Below, piece after piece: positions 9,476-49,903 of a stretch of 64,000 nucleotides of DNA. Position numbers and translations under genes: made by a program. How positions within the stretch are numbered: the first letter of the stretch is position 1; each line of letters starts with the position of its first letter. Source of the stretch: Rugalucina vietnamica (lineage: Eukaryota; Mollusca; Bivalvia; Lucinida; Lucinidae); assembly GCA_964017185.1 (NCBI GenBank), contig OZ024880.1, forward strand, positions 44,715,071-44,779,070, written 5' to 3'. Under the pieces are notes generated by a model, which was not told the DNA's origin, ran no database searches, and saw only the letters and a program-made list of their open reading frames with translations.

Positions 9476-11434
9476 AGCTCACCTGAGCCGAAGGCTCACA
9501 GGTGACCTTATAGTATACCCATGTTCCGGCGTCCGTCCGTCGTCCGTCGTCCGTCGTCCACCATTTTCAAAGATCTTCTCCTCTGAAACCACTTGGCCAG
9601 TCAAAGCCAAACTTCATGTGGAGCATTCTTAGGAAGGGGGAACGAAAGTTTATATAAATGGTCCAGGTCACATGACCAAGATGGCCGCCATAGCTATAAA
9701 TAGCAAAAACCTTTAAAAATCTTCTTCTCCAGAACCAGTGGGCCGATTTCCACGAAACTTGGTATGTAGCATCGGGGACGCGGGCCCATCATAGTTTATA
9801 TAAATCATGACCCTAGGATGACCTTGACCTATTTTATGGCAAGGTCAACTTAGGTCGCCAATGCATTTGAATGGGAAAAAATGGTAAAATGCTATTTAAT
9901 GGGTAAAACTTACTGGGAATAGGCAAATGGACAGAAGATTAATGTTAATGGAAAATTTTAGCCCCTGGGGGGTTGTCTGCCCCTGCCCTGGGGCTATATA
10001 CATGTATATGACCATAATATTCAAACATCTTCTCCCATAAAACCGCTAGGCCAATCAAAGCCAAACTTCATGTGGAGCATCCTTGGGAAGGGGGAAAGAA
10101 AGTTTATATAAATGGTCAAGGTCACATGATCAAGATGGCCGCCATGTCTATAAATAGAAAAAACCTTTAAAAATCTTCTTCTCCAGAACCAGAAGGCCAG
10201 TGATTTTGAAACTTGGTGTGAAGCATCAGTGACTGGAGCTCTACAAAGTTTATATAAATCATGACCCTGGGATGACCTCGACCTATTTTACGGCAAGGTC
10301 AACATAGGTCGCTCATGCATTTGAATGGGGAAAAGTGTTAAAATGTCATTTGTAGGGAAAAACTTGCAGGAAATGGGCAAATGGACTTATGATTGATGAT
10401 TCTGAAAAAATTTGGACCCCAGGGCAATATACATGTGTATGACCAAATTATTCAAACATCTTTTTCTCTGAAACCGCTTGGCCAATCAAAGCGAAACTTT
10501 ATGTGGAACATTCTTAGGAAGAGTGAATGAAAGTCTATATAAATGGTCAAGGTCACATGATCAAGATGGCCGCCATGGCTATAAATAGCAAAAACCTTTA
10601 AAAATCTTCTTCTCCAGAACCAGAAGGCCTATGATTTTGAAACTTGGCATGAAGCATCAGGCAATGGAGCTCTACAAAGTTTATATAAATCATGACCCTG
10701 GGATGACCTTGACCTTTTTTACAGCAAGGTCAACTTAGGCCGCCCATGCAATTGAATGGGGAAAAATAAGAAAATGTCAATTAATGGCAAAACCTTGCTA
10801 GGAATGAGAAAATTGACAGACTATTCATGTTTATGAAAATGTTTTTGGCCCAGAGGGTTGTCTGCCCCTGCCCAGGGGCTTTATACATGTGTATGACCAT
10901 AATGTTCAAACATCTTCTTCTCTGAAACCGCTTGGCCAATCAAAGCCAAACTTTATGAGGAGAATTCTTAGGAAGAGTAAATGAAAGTTTGTCAAGTTGG
11001 TCAAGGTCACGTGACCAAGATGGCCGCCATGGCTATAAATAGCAAAAACCTTTAAAAATCTTCTTCTCCAGAACCAGAAGGCCTATGATTTTGAAACTTG
11101 GCATGAAGCATCAAGCAATGGAGCTCTACAAAGTTTGTTTAAATCATGACCCTGAGATGACCTTGACCTTTTTTACGGCAAGGTCAACTTAGGTTGCCCA
11201 TGCATTTTAATGGGGAAAATTGTTACAATATCATTTGAAGGGCAAAATTTGCAATAAATTGGCAAATGGACTGATCATGAATCTTTATGATTTAAAAAAG
11301 AAATTGACTCCAGACGTTGCTCTGACCCTGCCCTAGGGTTATATACATGTATATTACCATTCTAGTCAAACAAGTTTATTGGTATATATCTCAGGTCTCA
11401 GGTGAGCGTTTACAGGACCATTGGTCCTCTGGTT
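9476..11434 (+). mobile_element. R3 Helentron-like modular element, copy 1
   Basis: Starts AGCTCACCTGAGCC, which folds with the GGCTCACAGGTGA that follows. Next come a CGTC-type microsatellite and four tandem modules of about 430-457 bp (near 9569, 10026, 10456, 10910). Each module contains TCACATGACCAAGATGGCC and ATGACCTTGACC. Near the 3' end CTCAGGTGAGC is an inverted copy of the 5' tip, followed by the hairpin GGACCATTGGTCC and the end CTCTGGTT. Asymmetric inverted repeats plus a 3' hairpin and no target duplication resemble non-autonomous Helentrons. No Rep/helicase gene is present. Confidence 0.7.
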
Positions 11435-21262: not shown

Positions 21263-23806
21263 TTGTTGATTAATTTAGTGTTCAAAAAGTGTTTGACTTT
21301 TGACTTAAACTAACCTAGACACATCAAATACATTTTAATGATCTTAATTTAACTTGAAAAAAATTGTTAAAATGAAAAACATGTTAATACTTTCCTACTT
21401 TGGTAGCCATTTTGGATGTCATCATTAATCAGTTAAATTCACTTTGCATAATGCTAACTTACATTTCTCTTGCATTTGTCAAGATATATGCTTGAATACA
21501 TTTTTACAATGATTCCTTCCATTGATTAAAATATCATGTTTTATCACAATAATTCATGCTAGTTTGGGTGCATTAATGGCGGCCATTTTTACAAAGAAGC
21601 CGCCATCTTAGAAAATGAAAGGATTTATTTTTATAGTATTCTGTCTTATAATGTTTATTATTAGATCTGTGGCTTTTCATACTTTTTAAGAAAGCGACAT
21701 TGATGCCTGCTTGTCAAGGTTGTTAATGGAAAAAAGCCACCATTTTGAATTTCAAGATGGCGGCCGTCACAGGACAAATTTCACGTGGCACTGACCCTCA
21801 AAAAGTCTTATAATTACAAATCTAGCTATGTACCAAGTTTCATGCTTTTATCAAAAAGTGCACAATCATTTCACATATCCGCCCTGCTATTAAAAATGTT
21901 CTTCTCCAGAACCAGTAGTCCGATTTCCACGAAACTTGGTATGTAGCATCGGGGACGCGGGCTCATTATAGTTTATATAAATCATGACCCTAGGATGACC
22001 TTGACCTATTTTACGGCAATGTCAACTTAGGTCGACAATGCATTTGAATGGGAAAAATGGTAAAATGCTGTTTAATGGGTAAGACTTACTGGGAATATGC
22101 AAATGGACAGAAGATTAATGTTAATGGAAAAGCTTAGCCCCTGGGGGTTGTCTGCCCCTGCCCCGGGGCTATATACATGTATATGACCAAAATATTCAAA
22201 CATCTTCTCTGAAACAGCTGCGCAAATCAAAGCCAAACTTCATGTGGAACATCCTTGGGAAGAGGGAATGAAAGTTTATATAAATGGTCAAGGTCACATG
22301 ACCAAGATGGCCGCCATGGCTATAAATAGCAAAAACGTTTAAAAATCTTCTTCTTCAGAACCAGAAGGCCTATGATTTTGAAACTTGGTGTGAAGCATCT
22401 GGGAATGGAGCTCTACAAAGTTTATATAAATCATGACCCAGGGATGACCTTGACCTATTTTACGGCAAGGTCAGCTTAGGTCTCCCATACATTTGAATGG
22501 GAAAAAATAGGAAAATGTAATTAAATGGCAGAAACTTGCTAGAAATGAGCAAATGGACAGAAGATTTATGTTTAAAAAATATTTTGGGCCCAGGGGGTTG
22601 TCTGCCCCTGCCCCTGGGCTATATACATGTATATGACCATAATATTGAAACATCTTCTTCTCTGAAACCGCTAGGCCAATCAAAGCCAACTTTTTTTTTG
22701 GAGCATCCTAAGGAAGAGGGAATAAAAGTTGGTATAAATGGTCAAGGTCACATGACCAAGATGGCCGGCAAAAACGTTTAAAAATCTTCTTCTTCAGAAC
22801 CAGAAGGCCTATGATTTTGAAACTTGGTATGAAGCATCTGGGAATGGAGCTCTAAAAAGTTTATATAAATCATGACCCAGGGATGACCTTGACCTTTTTT
22901 ACGGCAAGGTCAACTTAGGTCGCCCATGCATTTGAATGGGAAAAAATAGGAAAATGTCATGTAATGGCAGAAAACTTGCTAGAAATGAGCAAATGGACAG
23001 AAGATTTATGCTTATGAAAATTTTTTAGGCCCAGGGGTTGTCTGCCCCTGTCCCGGAGCTATATACATGTGGATGACCATAATATTCAAACAGCTTTTTC
23101 TCAGAAACTGCTTAGCCAATCAAAGCCAAACTTTATGTGGAGCATCCTTAGGAAGAGGAAATGATAGTTTATATAAATGGTCAAGGTCACATGACCAAGA
23201 TGGCCGCCATGGCTATAAATAGCTAAAAAAATCTCCTTCTTCAGAACCAGAAGGCCTATGATTTTTAAATTGGCATGAAACATTAAAGAACGGAGGTCTA
23301 CAAAATTTGTATAAATCATGACACTCGGATGACCTTGACCTTTTTCACGGCAAGGTCAACTTAGATCGCCCATGTATTTGAATAGAGAAAATTGTTAAAA
23401 TGTCATTTGAAGGACAAAACTTGCAGTTAATTGGCAAATGGACTGAATTTTTATGATTTGAAGAAGACATTGACTCCAGGAGTTATTCTGACCCTGCCCT
23501 AGGGTTATACACATGAATTGTACCATTCTAGTCTAACAAGTTTATTGGTACATGTATATGTCTCAGGTCTCAGGTGAGCGTTTACAGGACCATTGGTCTT
23601 CTGGTTCTTATTTTTGCTCCAAAACATATATTGTGGGTACTCGTTAGAACCGTCTCGCCGACGCGGTTCTAACGTATACCCTCAATCTATGTTATGGGCA
23701 AAAATAAGAAAAATATCAGAATTTTTCTCAGGACATTTTCAATTTTTACTGTTGAAAAAAAATCTCTACAGCTGTATATGTTGCATGGGCACGTTTTTGT
23801 ATTGGG

Positions 23807-35211: not shown

Positions 35212-35354
35212 TGAACGGCTCTAGCAGGGCTGCAACGATCTGTCATAAAAGTTAAAGAATCTGAATAGTTTTTCTGGTTTGACCTTCCCCCACCCACTTT
35301 TTTTTACATATAGTGATTGAAGGTCTTTTTGTTTAATCATTTGAATTGGAACTC

Positions 35355-38300
35355 ATGGCTTCAGGTTTTGTCGGTCCAACTGTGGGGCGGTTGACTTGTC
35401 GGGTTGGAAAAGAGCTGGTATGTTGTTTCCATACACCGAAGTCTTGTCCGCTGCTCCTCAGGTTGGCTCTGTTGTTGGTTTTCGGGCTCTGTGTTTGGAA
35501 GTGGACAACATCAGGAGATATTTTGGATGCAAACCAGGACTGTAGTATAGGATTTGGAAATTCAGTTGGTAGAATTGCTCAGAGTTTGGCCTTTACAAGG
35601 AAAATTGGTAACCGAAGAGGCTCCGAAGGATTACGCAGTTTCAATCCTTCACAGAGAACAAACTTGTTGATTCTTATTATTTTGGCTGGAGATATCGAAA
35701 TGAACCCAGGCCCCAGGTTCCAGTGCCGCACGTGCAAGAAGTATTGCAAGGCGGCTGAGAAAGCAGTTAAATGTGAAGATTGCGAGAAACGCTTCCATGC
35801 GTCTTGCGTAAATCTTGGTCCCGTTGAGTTACAAAAGATTGAGTCGGATAATGATTCTTGGTATTGTCCAAACTGCAAAGCTGAGTGCAGCCTATGCAGT
35901 GGTGCGGTTTTGAATTCCCATAAGGCTGTCCAGTGTGACAAATGTGAAATGTGGGTGCACAATAACTGTTCTTTTATGTCAGACTCAGAGTATGAAACAA
36001 TGCAAAACTCAAACTGTACATGGATTTGCCCAAAATGTGACTTTTTCAATTTCTCAGACTCTTTTTTCAATGAACAGTTTAACTTGGAAAGTGAAAATAG
36101 GTTTGACCTACTTGCAAAAGGTCATGAAACCAAGTCCACTGAAACCTTGACTAGCAAAAACAGTTATATTAGTGGTCTGAAATTTTCCAGTATCAACATA
36201 AACAGTATAAGAGGCAAAAAACTTGAGTTGTTGGCCTTCATTGATTTTCATCAATCTAAGATTTTAGCGATTCAGGAGACAAAAATTGACAATTCTATAT
36301 TAACGTCTGAATTATTTCCGGAATCTTTTCCATACAGCGTGTACAGAAAGGATAGAACCTTAAATGGTGGTGGTGTGATGCTCCTTGTGCACAAGGACAT
36401 CCCACACATGCCCCTCACAGAATTGGACAATGACTCAGAGTCAGTTTGGGTCAAACTTTTTGTAAATAAGAAAACTCACTTTGTGGCTAGCTGGTATCGA
36501 CCACCTGTCGATGGTCATTTACCAGTATCGGACAATGGAAATGACTTATTGAATTCCCTGGAAAAGTTTGACAATTTATTTAGAGAACAGCTTGACAAAA
36601 TCAAAAATATTAATAAAGGCAACAAACCCCCCTTAATTCACGTTTTAGGTGATTTCAACTTTAGAGATATTGTATGGCCGGACAGACTCAGCAAATCTGG
36701 GTCATCATTGAGTCAGACGGAGGGTCAGATTTTGATAGATATCATGAATGACCACGGTTTGGAACAATTAGTCAAATTCCCCACCAGAGAAAGAAATACT
36801 TTGGACTTAATTTTGACCTCTCTTCCTGGTCAGTTTGCAGATATTCATTCCCCGGATAAGCTAAGTGATCATGACATTGTTTCTGGCACTTTGAAAATTG
36901 CTATCCCCCCAATAAAGAAACCTAGGAGAAAAGTGTATCGTTATCAGAAAGGTGATTATGAATCTATGAGAGCAGAAACACTTAAATTTGCAAAGGAAAG
37001 ATACTTCAACGGTTACTCAGATACTCGGTCGGTCCAGGCAAATTTCAATCTTATTACATCGTTTATTCAGGAATCGGCAGATAAACATATCCCCTCAAAA
37101 ACTAGTCGCTCAGTTTCCTCTGTCCCTTGGATAACACCTGAGATAAGGAGGAAGATTCGCAGAAAAAATGCAACTCATGCAAAAGCTAAAAAGACTGGTA
37201 GTGCAAAATTTAGATCTAAATTTGAAACTTTACGGAAAGAGATCAAAGCTGATATCAGGAAGCAGCATGATCTTTACGTGAACAACTTGGTAGGAGATGT
37301 TAAGGCTAATCCTAGAGATTTTTACAGGTACATAAACAGTCAGAAAAAAGATACCCAAGGTATTCCCCCGTTGAAAAAGAGAAATGGAAGTGGAATTGCA
37401 CAATCCGAATTTGAGAAGGCGGAAGAATTTAATGGTCAGTTCTCGGATGTTTTCACTAAAAGTGAATACAAACAGGTCCCTCTTATGGATAGATCTGCCC
37501 CATTCATGCATGATATTGTGGTCACAAAGGAAGGGGTGACCAAACTTCTCAAAGGTCTAAACCCGTCTAAAGCCTTAGGGCCTGATGAGCTTCATCCCAG
37601 AGTCCTAAAGGAACTGGCTGTGGAATTAGGGCCAGTATTCGCCCATCTCTTCCAGCAGTCAATTGATACAGGTGAAATTCCTAAAGAATGGTCTCTTGCT
37701 AATATTTGCCCCCTGTTTAAGAAGGGCGACAGGTCACTTGCCCGCAATTACCGCCCTGTTTCTTTGACATGCATTCCTTGTAAGCTTCTTGAACATATTG
37801 TATGCTCAAATATTATGGCCCATCTTGATGAACATGAACTCTTGTCGGACAGGCAACACGCATTTAGGAAATGGCATAGCTGTGAAACTCAGTTGACTAC
37901 AGTGATAAATGACTGGGCCAAAATCTTAGACAAAAAAGGCCAGGTCGACACTTTTATACTCGATTTTGAAAAGGCTTTTGATACTCCTCCCCATGAACTC
38001 CTTAAAAGCAAATTGTTTAGCTATGGAATAGGTGGAACAACACTGAATTGGATAAATGCTTTCCTTTGTTTCCGACAACAAAGGGTAGTGGTTAATGGTA
38101 TTAAATCGGATTGGGCACCAGTTGTGTCAGGTGTCCCTCAGGGCACCGTTCTCGGCCCCTTGCTGTTTTCCTTGTATATAAATGACATCTCGGCAGACAT
38201 TGAGTCTGAAATAAGACTCTTTGCTGATGATTGTGTTTGCTATCGTGAAATCAAGAATGAAGAGGATACATTGAAACTTCAGAGAGACATTGATCGTTTA

Positions 38301-39041
38301 GGCAGTTGGGCTAGGAAATGGGGAATGAGATTTCAACCCGTCAAATGCAACATGATGCAGCTGACAAATAAACGGTCTAGTAAGATACAGGCTAACTACA
38401 CCCTTGAGGGCACTGTACTGGAAAACGTTGAAAACATAAAATACCTGGGTGTAACTATCACAAATGATTTGAAATGGAATACTCATATTTCCAATGTCTG
38501 TACAAAGGCTAACAGAACTCTCGGATTCTTAAGGAGAAATTTGTATTCTTGTCCCCCAGATGTGAAAGAAGCAGCTTATAAAGGACTGGTGCGGCCGGTC
38601 TTGGAATATGGAAGCTCAGTTTGGGACCCTCACACTCATGGCCTCCAGGAAGAACTGGAAAAGGTACAAAATCGTGCGGCAAGGTTTGTGACGGGAAATT
38701 ATGTTTTTGAAACTGGGAGCATGACTGGAATTTTAGGTCAACTGAAATGGGAATCTCTTAAGAAAAGGAGGAAGGATAGTAGACTTATATTGCTATACAA
38801 AGGTCTAAAGGGTAAAGCCAGAATACCCACAGATGACCTTATCCCAAAGAATAGGCGTTGTAGAAATCAACACTCTTTGGCTTTTCATATACCTTCAGCT
38901 AGCAAAGAAGCGTACAAAAGTAGTTTCTTTCCACAGACTATCAGGGACTGGAATGACCTCCCTGATTCACTTATCTCCTCTGCTGAAATGTCTGATGACT
39001 GTGTGTCCAAGTTCGCTACACTCGTGCGTTCAAGGGACTAG
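35355..39041 (+). CDS. CR1-like LINE polyprotein (2A, PHD x2, endonuclease, RT), intact
   Basis: One uninterrupted frame of 1228 codons from the ATG at 35355; a TTG nine bases upstream is in frame but less likely to start. In order: a hydrophobic segment at residues 31-48; a 2A ribosome-skipping motif GDIEMNPGP at 112-120; two PHD-type zinc fingers (C4HC3 pattern) at about 124-174 and 178-228; an AP-like endonuclease at about 275-505 (SSININSIRG, AIQETK, GGGVMLLV, LGDFNFRD, LSDHD); and reverse transcriptase at about 690-1000 with VSGVPQGTVLGPLLF and the catalytic FADD at 956-959. The C-terminal block is LEYGSSVWDPH. This is CR1-superfamily order. The protein would nick and copy its own RNA at target DNA. 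With no stops or frameshifts it looks recently active. It lies tail to tail with SDHC. Confidence 0.93.
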   Translation: MASGFVGPTVGRLTCRVGKELVCCFHTPKSCPLLLRLALLLVFGLCVWKWTTSGDILDANQDCSIGFGNSVGRIAQSLAFTRKIGNRRGSEGLRSFNPSQRTNLLILIILAGDIEMNPGPRFQCRTCKKYCKAAEKAVKCEDCEKRFHASCVNLGPVELQKIESDNDSWYCPNCKAECSLCSGAVLNSHKAVQCDKCEMWVHNNCSFMSDSEYETMQNSNCTWICPKCDFFNFSDSFFNEQFNLESENRFDLLAKGHETKSTETLTSKNSYISGLKFSSININSIRGKKLELLAFIDFHQSKILAIQETKIDNSILTSELFPESFPYSVYRKDRTLNGGGVMLLVHKDIPHMPLTELDNDSESVWVKLFVNKKTHFVASWYRPPVDGHLPVSDNGNDLLNSLEKFDNLFREQLDKIKNINKGNKPPLIHVLGDFNFRDIVWPDRLSKSGSSLSQTEGQILIDIMNDHGLEQLVKFPTRERNTLDLILTSLPGQFADIHSPDKLSDHDIVSGTLKIAIPPIKKPRRKVYRYQKGDYESMRAETLKFAKERYFNGYSDTRSVQANFNLITSFIQESADKHIPSKTSRSVSSVPWITPEIRRKIRRKNATHAKAKKTGSAKFRSKFETLRKEIKADIRKQHDLYVNNLVGDVKANPRDFYRYINSQKKDTQGIPPLKKRNGSGIAQSEFEKAEEFNGQFSDVFTKSEYKQVPLMDRSAPFMHDIVVTKEGVTKLLKGLNPSKALGPDELHPRVLKELAVELGPVFAHLFQQSIDTGEIPKEWSLANICPLFKKGDRSLARNYRPVSLTCIPCKLLEHIVCSNIMAHLDEHELLSDRQHAFRKWHSCETQLTTVINDWAKILDKKGQVDTFILDFEKAFDTPPHELLKSKLFSYGIGGTTLNWINAFLCFRQQRVVVNGIKSDWAPVVSGVPQGTVLGPLLFSLYINDISADIESEIRLFADDCVCYREIKNEEDTLKLQRDIDRLGSWARKWGMRFQPVKCNMMQLTNKRSSKIQANYTLEGTVLENVENIKYLGVTITNDLKWNTHISNVCTKANRTLGFLRRNLYSCPPDVKEAAYKGLVRPVLEYGSSVWDPHTHGLQEELEKVQNRAARFVTGNYVFETGSMTGILGQLKWESLKKRRKDSRLILLYKGLKGKARIPTDDLIPKNRRCRNQHSLAFHIPSASKEAYKSSFFPQTIRDWNDLPDSLISSAEMSDDCVSKFATLVRSRD
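35697..35714 (+). other. 2A-like ribosome-skipping site in LINE ORF
   Basis: Encodes the DIExNPGP consensus preceded by a hydrophobic run (LLILIILAG). In 2A peptides the bond between the last Gly and Pro is not formed, giving two products from one frame. Here it would release the first 119 residues, which include a hydrophobic segment, from the PHD-EN-RT part. Such motifs are known in other non-LTR elements. Confidence 0.85.
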
Positions 39042-40186: not shown

Positions 40187-40294
40187 TTAATACAAGAAGA
40201 CGAAGCATGAAGCGACGATGATGGCCATGGATAGACAGAACCAGCCGGTCTTGTAGAGGCGCTGCAGTCCGAATCCCCAGGACCAGTCCCAGCA
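40187..40294 (-). CDS. SDHC: SDHC exon E (last coding exon)
   Basis: Acceptor TTTATTTCCAG, then 36 codons to TAA at 40187-40189. It starts in phase 0 and continues exon D: IRHL joins CWDWSWGFGLQRLYKTGWF, followed by a hydrophobic helix (LSMAIIVASCFVFLY) that ends the protein. This is the third membrane helix of succinate dehydrogenase cytochrome b560; human SDHC likewise ends with WDLG...LYQSG plus a helix. An R2 MITE begins about 15 bp upstream of the acceptor. Confidence 0.9.
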   Translation of the reverse strand, partial: CWDWSWGFGLQRLYKTGWFCLSMAIIVASCFVFLY

Positions 40295-40308: not shown

Positions 40309-40506
40309 TGAGCCTGTGCGTGAGAAAACCAACAATTTGTGGTTTCGACAAGGTTCGACACAATCAGGCTGTACAGTCACAGTAGCAGACTAGAAACTTG
40401 AAATTTCGGATTTAAGAAGAAGGATTGTACTATCCGTGTGGCGAAAACAAAGGCGTTGATCAGCTTCCCGGTTACCGTGAAGCTGACCTGCGCCTTTGTT
40501 TTCGCT
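40309..40506 (+). repeat. R2 MITE, copy 8, next to SDHC exon E acceptor
   Basis: TGAGCCTGTGCGTGAGAAAA start and the GGCGTTGATCAGC palindrome; the right terminal repeat is missing. Located in SDHC intron D-E, 15 bp upstream of the exon E acceptor. Confidence 0.8.
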
Positions 40507-40928: not shown

Positions 40929-41214
40929 TTAAAACACAGTCTGTTAAAAACTTTTGACACAGTCTATTTCCATGGACCCCCAAAGATAGTGTTATAATGA
41001 GGTTGAAGTTTGAGAATTTCTACTCATTGACTTAAAATTGAGACTGAGAGGTATAGTAAGCTGGATAGGTCAGAAAGGCTGTTGCCAAATATTCTACAGG
41101 TGCAATAGATGAGCAGCACTTTATGATTGAAATCTAAAAGTTTAATGAATTCAGATCTGCTAGTTTATCTTGAAACAGTAGAAAATCTGATTTCTTTGTC
41201 TTGCCACTTTATAC

Positions 41215-41306
41215 CAAATGTCTGATTCTGTTTATATAGTGGTAAAAAATGGGGAACCCTAGGAGGTATTTCACCTCATCCCAGAGAGAGATCGTTCACC
41301 ATACAT
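41215..41306 (-). pseudogene. Decayed duplicate of SDHC exon D 3' part
   Basis: Minus-strand pieces FYHYINRIRHL, YLLGFP and MVNDLSLG match exon D (CYHYINGIRHL, YLLAFP, MVKDLSLG) with one internal deletion and a stop. The donor is decayed (GTATAA for GTAAGC). It sits downstream of the real exon D in intron D-E. Confidence 0.8.
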
Positions 41307-41525: not shown

Positions 41526-41604
41526 GTCTTTCACCATGTTCCATTAGTTAATCAGGTTAAGTGCCCATTCTTTCACTTCTGACTCGCAATTATCTGCCGC
41601 TTAC

Positions 41605-41768
41605 CAGATGTCTTATTCCATTTATATAGTGGTAGCAAACGGGGAACGCTAGGAGATATTTTGCCCCGATGATGATAGCCGGTCCTAGCGAGAGATCTTT
41701 CACCATGTTCAGATAGTGTGTGAAGTCCCCGGGCAGAGCAAGCAGGGCTATACTTGTCATGCTGACAG
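41605..41768 (-). CDS. SDHC: SDHC exon D
   Basis: Acceptor GATGATATTTCAG, donor GTAAGC, 164 nt. It enters with two bases completing a codon (A from exon C plus CT) and leaves in phase 0. Translation: VSMTSIALLALPGDFTHYL, then MVKDLSLGPAIIIGAKYLL and AFPVCYHYINGIRHL. It covers the end of membrane helix 1, the loop and helix 2. In the H-x3-G-I-R-H-L signature the first His is the family's axial ligand to haem b. Human SDHC reads MYHTWNGIRHL here. An R2 MITE starts 42 bp upstream, and a decayed copy of the exon lies downstream. Confidence 0.93.
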
Positions 41769-41809: not shown

Positions 41810-42075
41810 ATGAGCCGCATCAGAAGAAAACCAGATTTTTGCCTATGCGAAAACAAAGGCGCAGATCAGCTTCGCGGTAACCGCGAAGCAGATCAGCTTC
41901 GCGGTAACCGCGAAGCTGTTACCGCGAAGCTGATCAGCGCCTTTGTTTTTGCTACATGGATAGTAGAATCCCTCTTCTTCTTAAATCCAAATTTCAAGCT
42001 TCTAGCCTTTTTCTAAGACTATACAAGCCAGTTTCTGTAGGACCTGGTCAGAAACCCCGAAGACCCATTTTCTCC
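41810..42075 (-). repeat. R2 MITE, copy 9, expanded stem
   Basis: TGAGCCGCATCAGAAGAAAA start. The internal palindrome contains extra repeated CTTCGCGGTAACCGCGAAG blocks, as if the stem had slipped. The far terminal repeat is lost. It sits 42 bp upstream of the SDHC exon D acceptor. Confidence 0.8.
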
Positions 42076-42489: not shown

Positions 42490-43315
42490 TCAAGGACATT
42501 GCTATTTCTGTAGCTCTGTGGCAAAGTGACAATTTTGGCCTTCAGTTAACATCCTCTTCACCCCCACCCCCTTGCCGATGTTGTACTTACTCAAGGCCAT
42601 GGCAATTCCTGTAGCTCTGTGGCAAAGTGACAATTTTGGCCTTCAGTCAGTTAACATCCCCTTCACCCCCCATCCCCACCCCCTCGCCGATGTTGTACTT
42701 ATTCAAGACCATGGCAATTCCTGTAGCTCTGTGGCAAAGTGACAATTTTGGCCTTCAATCAGTTAACATCCCCTTCACCCCCATCCCCACCCCCTCGCCA
42801 ATGTTGTACTTACTCAAGGCCATGGCAATTCCTGTAGCTCTGTGGCAAAGTGACAATTTTGGCCTTCAGTTAACATCCCCTTCACCCCCCCATCCCCACC
42901 CCCTCGCCGATGTTGTACTTACTCAAGGCCATGGCAATTCCTGTAGCTCTGTGGCAAAGTGACAATTTTGGCCTTCAGTTAACATCCCCTTTTCCTCCCA
43001 TCCCCACCACCTCGCCGATGTTGTACTTACTCAAGGTCATGACAATTCTGTAGCTCTGTGGCAAAGTGACAATTTTGGCCTTCAGTTGCAGGCACAGTAC
43101 TTGCATCCCCCTCACCCCCACCCCCCAGCCCCACCCCCTTGCGGATGTTGTACTTACTCAAGGCCATGGCAATTCCTGTAGCTCTTTGGCAAAGTGAGAA
43201 TTTTGGCCTTCAGTTAACATCCCCCTCACCCCCCAACCCCAACCCCATGCCGATGTTGTACTTACTCAAGGCCATGGCAATTCCTGTAGCTCTGTGACAA
43301 AGTGACAATTTTGGC
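42490..43315 (-). pseudogene. Eight tandem copies of SDHC exon C (50-nt cassettes)
   Basis: The copies lie at 42490-42539, 42591-42640, 42703-42752, 42814-42863, 42923-42972, 43031-43079, 43158-43207 and 43266-43315. Most have an AACTGAAG acceptor-like end and a GTAAGT donor. Each keeps the phase of exon C but reads KPKLSLCHRATGIAMAL, four residues shorter than the real exon. One copy has a broken donor (ATAAGT) and one has a 1-base deletion. Spacers are CACCCC-rich. Because 50 is not a multiple of three, a single copy could replace exon C in frame, but serial inclusion would shift the frame. Confidence 0.88.
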
Positions 43316-43381
43316 ATTCAGTTACAGGCACAGTACTTGCATCCCCCTCACCCCCCACCCCCACGCCGATGTTGTACTTAC

Positions 43382-43443
43382 TCAAGGCCATGGCAATTCC
43401 TGTAGCTCTGTGGCAAAGTGACAACATAGAGGTCAACTGTGGC
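43382..43443 (-). CDS. SDHC: SDHC exon C
   Basis: Acceptor TTTTTAAACTTGTAG, donor GTAAGT, 62 nt. Phase fits both sides: AA from exon B plus G gives Lys, and the final A joins CT of exon D. It encodes PQLTSMLSLCHRATGIAMAL. With exon B it completes the SDH cytochrome signature (R-P-L-x3-L ... S-x2-H-R-x-T). By homology with E. coli SdhC the Ser and Arg of S-x2-H-R face the ubiquinone site. This full-length copy is the only one of the nine with QLTSM, so it is taken as the real exon. An R2 MITE starts about 22 bp upstream. Confidence 0.92.
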
Positions 43444-43465: not shown

Positions 43466-43704
43466 ATAAGCCACCTCGTGGGAAAACCAACAATGTGGTT
43501 TCCGAACAGGTCCGACACAAATCAGGCTGTGCAGTCACAGAAGATGGTTAGAGGCAGGAAATTTTGGATTTAGAAAGAAGAGGAGCTGAACTACCTGTGA
43601 AGCGAAAACAAAGGCGCTGATCAGCTTCGCGGCTTCCGCGAAGCTGATCTGCGCCTTGGTTTTCGCATATATGCAGATTGTTGGTTTTCCCATGAGGCGG
43701 CTCA
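43466..43704 (+). repeat. R2 MITE, copy 10 (complete), next to exon C acceptor
   Basis: GCCACCTCGTGGGAAAACC start, CGCTGATCAGCTTCGCGGC palindrome and ATGAGGCGGCTCA end. Its edge is 22 bp upstream of the SDHC exon C acceptor. Confidence 0.85.
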
Positions 43705-45058: not shown

Positions 45059-45374
45059 AATTACTCACAAAATCTTCCTAATGTAAAAATTGCTCTTCTG
45101 TATATCATGTATATCTTAGTTCATGAATTTCAGTAGCATCAAAAGCCTAACTAAAGGTACGTACATTGTACATGTATTTGGAAAAAAGCATGTCAAAGAA
45201 AAGTTTTTACAAGTTCACGGTTAAAAAAATCACCATCAAGACTTAAAATACAAATTCAGTAAAATTGCTTCTAGTGAAAATTCTTTCAACTTTCAGCCTC
45301 TTGGGTATCTAAAGGCTAATAATTTCATGCCAACTTCAGATTAGTGTAGAGGAAAAGTTGGGGCTAGGTCTTAC

Positions 45375-46227
45375 TTGTATATAGAGAGATGGGGAGACAG
45401 GGGTCGCTGTAGCTATCTGTTACAGTTAGGCAAGAAAGAATTTTAACAAAATCTCTGGGCTAGGTCTTACTTGTATATAGAGAGATGGGGAGACAGGGGT
45501 CGCTGTAGCTATCTGTTACAGTTAGGCAAGAAAGAATTTTAACAAAATCTCTGGGCTAGGTCTTACTTGTATATAGAGAGATGGGGAGACAGGGGTCGCT
45601 GTAGCTATCTGTTACAGTTAGGCAAGAAAGAATTTTAACAAAATCTCCGGGCTAGGACTTACTTGTATATAGAGAGATGGGGAGACAGGGGTCGCTGTAG
45701 CTATCTGTTACAGTTAGGCAAGAAAGAATTTTAACAAAATCTCTGGGCTAGGTCTTTCTTGTATATAGAGAGATGGGGAGACAGGGGTCGCTGTAGCTAT
45801 CTGTTACAGTTAGGTAAGGAAGAATTTTAACAAAAGCTTGGTGCTAGGTCTTACTTGTATATAGATTTGTTTGTTTGAATTGATACTTTACATCCCAGTC
45901 AACAGCAAAGGTCATGTCGGGACGCTGCCTCCATTTTATGGGACTTTTACCCACCATTAGGATGTCATGACACTCAAAATGTGCTTCATATTAACCACCC
46001 AACTAAGCCAAAAAGGTTTGTATGTATGGATGGTTTGACTAAACCACTTTTCCTGGGCAGGCTCAGACTTGAGTGGTTTACCAGTAATCATAGATTAGAA
46101 GCTTTGCCTGGAGGCACAAGCAGTCCATCTATTTCTACAAGACCCTAATGGGCAGGGGGGGGGCATATTCCCACCCGATCACTCTTTGTATATAGAGAGA
46201 TGGGGAGACAGGGGTCTCTGTAGCTAT
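45375..46227 (-). pseudogene. Six tandem copies of SDHC exon B 3' end (96-bp period)
   Basis: The copies are 45375-45416, 45471-45512, 45567-45608, 45663-45704, 45759-45800, and one split by a retroposon (45855-45864 plus 46196-46227). Each 42-nt block encodes LQRPLSPHLSIY in the SDHC frame, ends at a GTAAGA/GTAAGT-like donor and is preceded by a pyrimidine-rich acceptor-like TTCTTTCTTGCCTAACTG. Taken from that acceptor, the frame opens with TAG, so inclusion would add a stop. It looks like a minisatellite but derives from the exon. Confidence 0.88.
45865..46185 (-). mobile_element. R8 retroposon, copy 1, with 10-bp TSD
   Basis: TTGTATATAG is duplicated at 45855-45864 and 46186-46195 around a 321-bp insert. 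Read on the minus strand, the insert ends in a CAAACAAACAAAT tail. It splits one unit of the exon B array, so it came after the array formed. Related copies: 52755, 62004, 63868, and part of 51602. Confidence 0.8.
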
Positions 46228-46281
46228 CTGTTACAGTTAGGCAAGAAAGAATTTTAACAAAATCTCTGGGCTAGGACTTAC

Positions 46282-46392
46282 TTGTATATAGAGAGATGGG
46301 GAGACAGGGGTCGCTGTAGCTGTCTGTTTTTCTTCCAATATTCATCCATCTGTTTGTAAGGGTCGATATAATTCACCCCCGTTGCAGCAGCA
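46282..46392 (-). CDS. SDHC: SDHC exon B
   Basis: Acceptor TATATTTCAG, donor GTAAGT, 111 nt: one base completing a Ser codon, 36 codons and AA left over. It encodes AAATGVNYIDPYKQMDEYW, then KKNRQLQRPLSPHLSIY. The first part is the region after the mitochondrial targeting peptide (human: KEEMERFWNKN), and RPLSPH is the conserved start of the mature anchor. This is the only copy with the full 5' part, so it is the real exon; six partial copies lie downstream. Confidence 0.93.
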
Positions 46393-47087: not shown

Positions 47088-47144
47088 CTCTTGTGAAACA
47101 ATGCCACTGTTTGTCTCCCTGCCACATTCTGTCGGCATATTGTT
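47088..47144 (-). CDS. SDHC: SDHC exon A (targeting-peptide region)
   Basis: Acceptor TATATTTTTCAG, donor GTAGGT, 57 nt: one base, 18 codons and AG left over. It encodes TICRQNVAGRQTVALFHK and joins exon B through a split Ser codon. Arg-rich with no acidic residue, as expected for a mitochondrial presequence. The upstream exon with the start codon (roughly 10-20 residues if length matches other SDHC proteins) was not found. The donor is duplicated by the R9 MITE. Confidence 0.8.
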
Positions 47145-47894: not shown

Positions 47895-49903
47895 AACCAG
47901 AGGACCAATGGTCCTGTAAACGCTCACCTGAGATCTGCAGCATATACCAATAAACATGTTTGAATATTATGGTATTTAATCCCAGTGCAGGGGCAGATGA
48001 AGCCCTTGGGCCATTTTCTTTTTCAGAATAATCAATATTTTGTCCATTTGCCAATTTCCTGCTGGCTTTTTCCTTCAAATGACATTTTAACGGTTATTCC
48101 CATTCAAATGCATTGGCAACCCATGTTGACCTTGCCATAAACTGGGTCAAGGTCATCACAGGGTCATGATTTATATATACATTGTAGTACTTGAGCCATC
48201 GATGCTTCAAGCCAAGTTTCCTTGAAATCTGTCCACTGGTTCCGGAGAAGAAGATTTTTGAGAGATTTTTACCATATATGGGCCTGGCGGCTATCTTGGT
48301 CATGTGACCTGGATTATTTATATACACATTGATTACCCCATCCTTTAGATGCTTCACATAAAATTTGGCTTTGATTGGCCGAGTGGTTTCAGAGGAGCAC
48401 ATGTTTGAATATTATGGAGATATACAAGTATATTGCCCCGGGGTGGGGGCATATGAGCCCCTGTGGTCCATTTTTTGTCAGAATCATTAATAGTCAGTCC
48501 TTTAGCCCATTTCCTGCAAGACTTTCACTTTAAATGACATTTTAAAAGTTTTCCCCATTCAAATGCATTGGTGACCTATGTTGACCTTGCCATAAAATAG
48601 GTCAAGGTCATCACAGGGTCATGATTTATATATACATTGTAGTGCTTTAGCCATCGATAATTCATGCCAAGTTTCATTGAAATTGGTCCAACGGTTCCAG
48701 AGAAAATGATTTTTGAAGGGTTTTTACCATATTTGGGCATGGCGGCCATCTTGGTCATGTGACCTGGATTATTTATATACACATTGGTTATCCCTTCCTA
48801 TTGATGCATTACATAAAATTTGGCTTTGATTGGTCAAGTGGTTTCAGAGGAGCAGACGTTTGAATACAGTGAAAATATACATGTATATTGCCCCGGGGTG
48901 GGGGCACATGAGCCCCTGGGGTCCATTTTTTTTTCAGAATCATTAATATTCAGTCCTACTGCCCATTTCCTGCAAGACTTTCACTTTAAATGTCATTTTA
49001 AAAGTTTTCCCCATTCAAATGCATTGGCGACCTATGTTGACCTTGCCGTAAAATAGGTCAAGGTCATCACAGGGTCATGATTTATATATACATTGTAGTG
49101 CTTTAGCCATCGATGCTTCATGCCAAGTTTCATTGAAATTGGTCCACCGGTTCCAGAGAAAAAGATTTTTGAAGGGTTTTTACCATATATGGGCATGGCG
49201 GCCATCTTGGTCATGTGACCTGGATTATTTATATACACATTGGTTCCCCCTTCCCATAGATGCTTCATGTAAAATTTGGCTTTGATTGGCCAAGCGGTTT
49301 CAGAGAAGAAGATGTTTGAATATTATGATAATATACATGTATATTGCCCCGGGGTGGGGGCGGATGAGCCCCTGGGGCCCAATTTTTTCAGAATCATTAA
49401 TATTCGGTCCTACTGCTCATTTTCTGCAAGATTTTTCCTTTAAATGACAATTTAACAATTTTTCCCATTCAAATGCAAAGGCGACCTATGTTGACCTTGC
49501 CGTAAAATAGGTCAAGGTCACCGCAAGGTCATGATTTATATACACATTGTAGTACTTGAGTCATCGATGCTTCATGCCAAGTTTGGTTGAAATCGGTCCA
49601 CTGGTTCCGGAGAAGAAGATTTTTGAAGGGTTTTTACCATATATGGGCATGGCGGCCATCTTGGTCATGTGACCTGGATTATTTATATACACATTGGTTC
49701 CCCCTTCCCATAGATGCTTCATGTAAAATTTGGCTTTGATTGGCCAAGCGGTTTCAGAGAAGAAGATCTTTGAAAATGGTGGACGACGGACGGACGGACG
49801 GACGACGGACGACGGACGGACGACGGACGACGGACGGACGGACGCCGGATCGACATGGCCATCCTATAAGCTCACCTTGTGAGCCTGACGGCTCAGGTGA
49901 GCT
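47895..49903 (-). mobile_element. R3 Helentron-like element, copy 3
   Basis: Reverse copy: AACCAGAGGACCAATGGTCC at the 3' end, modules with GGCCATCTTGGTCATGTGAC, a CGGACGGACGAC-type microsatellite, and GGCTCAGGTGAGCT at the 5' end. Modules are more alike than in copy 1, suggesting internal homogenisation or a younger age. Confidence 0.75.

Follow-up and report, generated by a model that had tools for sequence, protein, structure and literature searches.

The stretch analysed here, 64,000 nucleotides (nt) from the lucinid bivalve Rugalucina vietnamica (assembly GCA_964017185.1, contig OZ024880.1, forward-strand positions 44,715,071 to 44,779,070; hereafter the window), carries on its minus strand an SDHC gene in which arrays of partial exon copies follow two of the exons. 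The SDHC product is a membrane subunit of respiratory complex II. When joined, the exons match Pfam family PF01127 (E 3.7e-19) and the complex II chain 2wqy_C in PDB (E 4.4e-30), confirming the gene assignment of a preliminary description made from the letters of this DNA. The top protein match is 81% identical, and the named matches near the top come from bivalves and a chiton. Apart from the repeats, the gene appears to be of an otherwise normal-looking bivalve type.

The exon set analysed starts after the first exon and comprises A2, B, C, D and E, all on the minus strand. Exon A2 (47088-47144), a probable exon for the targeting peptide, gave a weak tblastn match to residues 3-21 of the SDHC relative P0001 (E 0.028) and has an acceptor ranking 2 of 413, the donor GAG/GTAGGT and a fitting phase. 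Exon B (46282-46392, 111 nt) encodes RPLSPHLSIYK, exon D (41605-41768) is 164 nt long, and exon E (40187-40294) runs through the stop codon. The real exon C (43382-43443, 62 nt) is bounded by TTGTAG/GCC and TTGA/GTAAGT, and its acceptor ranks 29 of 413. Splice sites were scored with generic frequencies, and only ranks within the gene, among its 413 AGs, are used; on this scale the ranks of the five real acceptors are 2, 4, 6, 29 and 66.

Partial copies of exon C

Eight copies of the last 43 nt of exon C lie downstream of the real exon, each preceded by GCCAAAA, which brings the repeated piece to about 50 nt. They are 90.7-100% identical to exon C (E 1.5e-12 to 5.6e-18), and with it they form the nine-copy series that had been described previously. 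Successive units are spaced, from the real exon onwards, by 116, 108, 128, 107, 109, 111, 112 and 101 nt (range 101-128 nt). Local alignment on the donor side of exon C scored 122 against 24 for the best of 100 shuffles, so that the copies are not a chance resemblance. The units hold only the 3′ part of the exon and its donor, never the whole exon.

The state of each copy can be read directly. Copies 4 (42923-42965), 5 (42814-42856) and 7 (42591-42633) are identical to exon C at 43/43 nt and have intact donors. The donor is also intact in copy 1 (43266-43308), which has AAT and no AG at the acceptor place, in copy 2 (43158-43200), with L to F and H to Q replacements, and in copy 3 (43031-43072), with a 1-nt deletion. 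Copy 6 (42703-42745) has an A to V replacement and the donor ATAAGT, in which GT became AT, and copy 8 (42490-42532), the distal and most diverged one (90.7%), has G to E and A to S replacements and has lost its donor (GTTTTG). A donor had been attributed to every copy; GTAAGT is kept in six of the eight, and the copies starting at 42745 and 42532 lack it. The acceptor-like ends described earlier exist as an AG at the homologous place in seven copies (not in that starting at 43308), but the highest-scoring AGs close to the copies (starts 43308, 43200, 43072, 42965, 42856, 42745, 42633 and 42532) lie behind G-rich sequence and rank 130-409 of 413, and none of the eight matches the weakest real acceptor. 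The AG, frame, quinone-site motif and donor all occur together in three copies. The seven copies without an indel show 3 silent and 5 replacement changes, few events in either class.

The preliminary description offered two readings of this series, the first being a cluster of mutually exclusive exons in the process of being born. Under such a nascent mutually exclusive or cassette exon arrangement, a copy would replace exon C and give an SDHC four residues shorter before the S-x2-H-R motif. The predicted loss is right (KPQLTSMLS becomes KPKLS), the 50-nt copy and the 62-nt exon are equal in length modulo 3, and the six intact donors and three fully equipped copies fit the idea. So does a slightly lower divergence in the exonic part: among the seven units without an indel, pairwise differences amount to 24/903 (2.7%) in the exonic part, 18/357 (5.0%) in the adjoining 17 intron bases and 44/357 (12.3%) in the last 17, a contrast that rests on few events (four changes in the exonic part, counted over the real exon and six copies, and three in the intron bases next to it). 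Use of a copy, however, would shorten the spacing between SPH and HRxTG from 15 residues to 11, and direct counting in homologues found 15 in 114 of 114 with a countable motif and 11 in none; the sample was 120 of the 168 homologues found, six of which, including a Mya arenaria entry, have a changed or missing motif. Together with the poor acceptors, the missing AG, the two lost donors, the H to Q and G to E changes in two copies, the deletion in a third and the absence of the exon's 5′ part from all of them, this makes an exon cluster being born highly improbable. The second reading, a graveyard of duplicated exons, came close, but the units are exon 3′ parts with a donor only and exon B, with a decayed trace at exon D, is affected likewise; 'minisatellite spanning an exon-intron boundary' is the more exact term.

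A tblastn search of the window with 18 relatives for a second, diverged exon C returned, in the rows of P0001, P0002 and P0009, the known exons and the copies and otherwise weak matches. Some bivalve SDHC relatives (P0005 and P0009) carry LPMATSLAHR or LPMMTSLAHR at the position of LTSMLSLCHR, which the window shares with most others, and there may be a second SDHC type in clams. A C560-like protein of Mya arenaria (P0015) is without the seven residues after HRVT, which are encoded here by the end of exon C; either a gene-model error or an alternative donor could account for this gap. All five coding-strand G-quadruplex-like motifs that a pattern search found in the window fall in the exon C array (43246, 43138, 42903, 42794 and 42683), the other strand having one; these motifs might affect replication slippage or splicing.

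A second array after exon B and traces at exon D

Beyond what had been described, a similar array follows exon B and a decayed copy follows exon D. Six copies of the last 47 nt of exon B lie downstream of it at 96-nt spacing, and Tandem Repeats Finder reports a period of 96 nt with 97% matches over the five copies at 45361-45865. The donor-side copy score of exon B is 124, the best shuffles across donors reaching 23-26 (shuffles permute two-base blocks). In all six copies the CAG of exon B has become an in-frame TAG. Copy 1 (46186-46232, 95.7% identical) has its donor cut off by a 320-nt insertion resembling a short interspersed nuclear element (SINE) at 45866-46185, on the minus strand, which ends in CAAACAAACAAA and is flanked by an 11-nt direct repeat, TCTATATACAA. 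Copy 2 (45759-45805, 47 nt) has a donor altered to GAAAGA; copy 3 (45663-45709) has GTAAGT, and copies 4 (45567-45613), 5 (45471-45517) and 6 (45375-45421) have GTAAGA. The step from copy 1 to copy 2 is 427 nt, that is, 96 + 320 + 11. Since the insertion with its 11-nt target-site repeat lies inside an exon copy, it probably came later than the array.

The 3′ part of exon D (its last 57 nt) recurs as a decayed copy at 41212-41302, made up of a main segment (41271-41212, 60 columns, 85%) and a 24-nt piece (41302-41279, 87.5%), with a donor-side score of 68. An identical 15-nt exon D fragment at 41527-41541 (score 30; none of 200 shuffles came up to it) is a possible second remnant. No local copies were found at the exon A2 donor (score 17, best shuffle 26), no duplication was detected on the acceptor side of exons B, C, D and E (scores 17-23, best shuffles 26-29), and copies of exon E were not found. 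An Rfam search for structured RNA gave no match at the gathering score.

Mis-assembly might have produced the arrays wholly or in part: one amphioxus array of a comparable kind was aberrantly assembled in a draft genome, according to an excerpt of PMC3087553, and the exact copy number here rests on one assembly. The exon C units, however, differ from one another by substitutions and indels, one exon B copy is interrupted by the 320-nt element and its 11-nt target-site repeat, and the exon D copy is just 85% alike. We therefore give an assembly artefact very little credence.

How often such copies arise in the window

Pfam searches with 10 chosen open reading frames outside the gene and the large transposon yielded one reverse transcriptase match and one endonuclease match below the curated cut-off. 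As this gave no control genes, sampled window positions were used as the control: copies within the next 1.2 kb were scored at 741 points outside the gene, taken from both strands. A score of at least 60 was obtained at 70/741 points (9.4%), or at 12/645 (1.9%) outside the long-period arrays of the window, the latter 12 clustering at about four places and hence not independent; direct duplicates within 3 kb make up 19.9% of the window's bases. Three of the four SDHC donors have copies at this level (scores 124, 122 and 68; A2 17). Since the window was selected for its exon C array, a fair estimate concerns two of the other three donors, for which the chance calculated by hand from the control rates is about 0.025 (at 9.4%) or 0.001 (at 1.9%). 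Donor copies in SDHC thus exceed the window background at most moderately, on very few donors.

Interpretation of the arrays

We consider it very probable, from the genomic sequence of one assembly, that the SDHC arrays are minisatellites spanning splice donors, of the type called 'mirages' in amphioxus, in a normal-looking bivalve gene. This reading draws on units that, at both B and C, start within the exon and extend across its donor; on donor-side scores that beat the shuffles at three exons while the acceptor sides do not; on the poor acceptors of the exon C copies, their damage (indel, lost donors, H to Q, G to E) and the TAG in every exon B copy; on the fixed spacing of 15 residues, which an exon C copy would reduce to 11; and on the same anatomy in the amphioxus mirages. 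Mechanistically, a segment stretching from an exon's 3′ end across its donor into the first tens of bases of the intron would have been duplicated in tandem, so that the upstream unit stays attached to the real exon and the extra units sit in the intron. The arrays that follow exons B and C would then have been expanded and partly homogenised by slippage or unequal exchange, and the copy after exon D would have decayed. The exon C copies, which lack a polypyrimidine tract, would go out with the intron. These donor-spanning minisatellites are probably neutral. As to the array edges, after exon B the differing unit is that cut off by the insertion; after exon C divergence is greatest in the distal copy, but copies 2 and 3 differ too.

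Several observations weigh against this reading. The exon D copy extends just 3 nt beyond the donor, and a strict span rule (80% identity, 6 nt on each side of the donor) is satisfied by exons B and C only. The base rate under this rule is 16.2%, or 5.3% once long-period arrays are set aside, which by hand gives a chance for two of four donors of about 0.13 (0.016 without those arrays). The lower divergence of the exonic part of the exon C units lies in the direction that constraint would give. Acceptor-like sites with ranks of 9-18 among the 413 occur in all six exon B copies, four of which keep a GTAAG donor; the exon B copies are thus more spliceable than the exon C copies and might be spliced.

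If they were, the 42-nt pieces (CAG/ATAG...ACAA/GTAAGA) could act as poison exons, whose occasional inclusion would bring in a stop codon and lower SDHC mRNA by nonsense-mediated decay. By reading of the junctions, TAG would come in frame either way, after exon B (AA/A TAG) or, in place of exon B, after exon A2 (AG/A TAG), and it is present in 6/6 copies. A stop is, however, also expected from neglect, homogenisation of the array would spread a TAG to all units, and two of the six copies have no working donor; we regard poison exons as unlikely. A broader proposal is that SDHC in this clam lineage would be a hotspot of donor-spanning duplications recurring at successive exons, and its exon B array a bank of spliceable 42-nt poison exons setting complex II dosage by number and inclusion, perhaps with oxygen or sulfide. 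This we hold to be decidedly unlikely.

Other elements in the window

Near SDHC, related palindromic pieces (GCGCTGATCAGCTTCGCGG...CCGCGAAGCTGATC...) lie at 41861-41940, 43602-43665 and 40441-40486; they are probably three copies of a short foldback transposon. On the plus strand, a long interspersed nuclear element (LINE) at 35337-39041 has an intact 1234-amino-acid open reading frame; several proteins on ENA contigs match its region 560-900 at 98-99% identity, which suggests that the family may be recently active. It is also 81% identical to an entry labelled Candidatus Thiodiazotropha, a symbiont of lucinid clams. Long-period arrays (439-456 nt) lie at 9563-11372, 21890-23526 and 47953-49783; the three perhaps form one dispersed satellite-like family.

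Comparison with known systems

Like the SDHC arrays, tandem mutually exclusive exons comprise multiple copies, arranged in tandem and compatible in phase, that are related to a single exon. They differ in that the SDHC copies are damaged exon ends without acceptors and would break a conserved spacing. A usable acceptor of their own is missing from the exon C copies, whereas the exon B copies do have acceptor-like sites; neither set offers a workable replacement segment, that from C because of the spacing and that from B because of the TAG in 6/6 copies. Intron gain through tandemly duplicated AG/GT segments (the Rogers model; potato RdRp case, PMC4974935) likewise duplicates a segment with splice signals in tandem inside a gene, but the SDHC copies lie within existing introns, with no new intron or exon shown.

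Among the titles of the matches listed from openly licensed papers in PubMed Central (PMC), none reported boundary-spanning repeats in molluscs or duplication of SDHC exons, and splice-boundary minisatellites called mirages were found, among the matches listed from the same literature, only in two amphioxus papers. Excerpts of mollusc studies describe a polymorphic 27-base-pair (bp) intronic minisatellite in abalone, with no boundary spanning stated in those passages (PMC6905558), and repeats likened to miniature inverted-repeat transposable elements in Lucina haemoglobin genes (PMC4732748).

The closest likeness is to the amphioxus mirages, which excerpts of PMC3087553 and PMC3902484 describe as minisatellite-like tandem duplications of exon-intron boundaries in Adh3, the globins BflGb6 and BflGb9, TnC and PGBD5; PMC3087553 cites Canestro 2002 as the original paper on the Adh mirage. 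According to these excerpts splicing is undisturbed, array length is unstable, and units measure 10-160 bp (Adh3 10-72, BflGb6 150-160, BflGb9 157, PGBD5 60 and 108). The comparison is one of anatomy, known for SDHC from one assembly's sequence. Exons B and C share the boundary-spanning tandem repeat, exon D having just one decayed copy; the unit lengths of 96 nt (B) and 101-128 nt (C) fall in the amphioxus range; splice signals are kept in many units; and edge units, which the same excerpts report as left out of homogenisation in mirages, may be so here. The SDHC case differs in lying in a mollusc, at three donors of one gene and on the donor side only, whereas both boundaries are affected in amphioxus, a lancelet. 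The kept donors, in six exon C and four exon B copies, could trap gene predictors, and the arrays offer a concrete case for studying the possible neutrality of donor duplication and its potential as a starting point for new exons or introns. In this mollusc gene two exons are followed by repeats and a third by a decayed trace, which suggests that the process behind mirages is not peculiar to lancelets.
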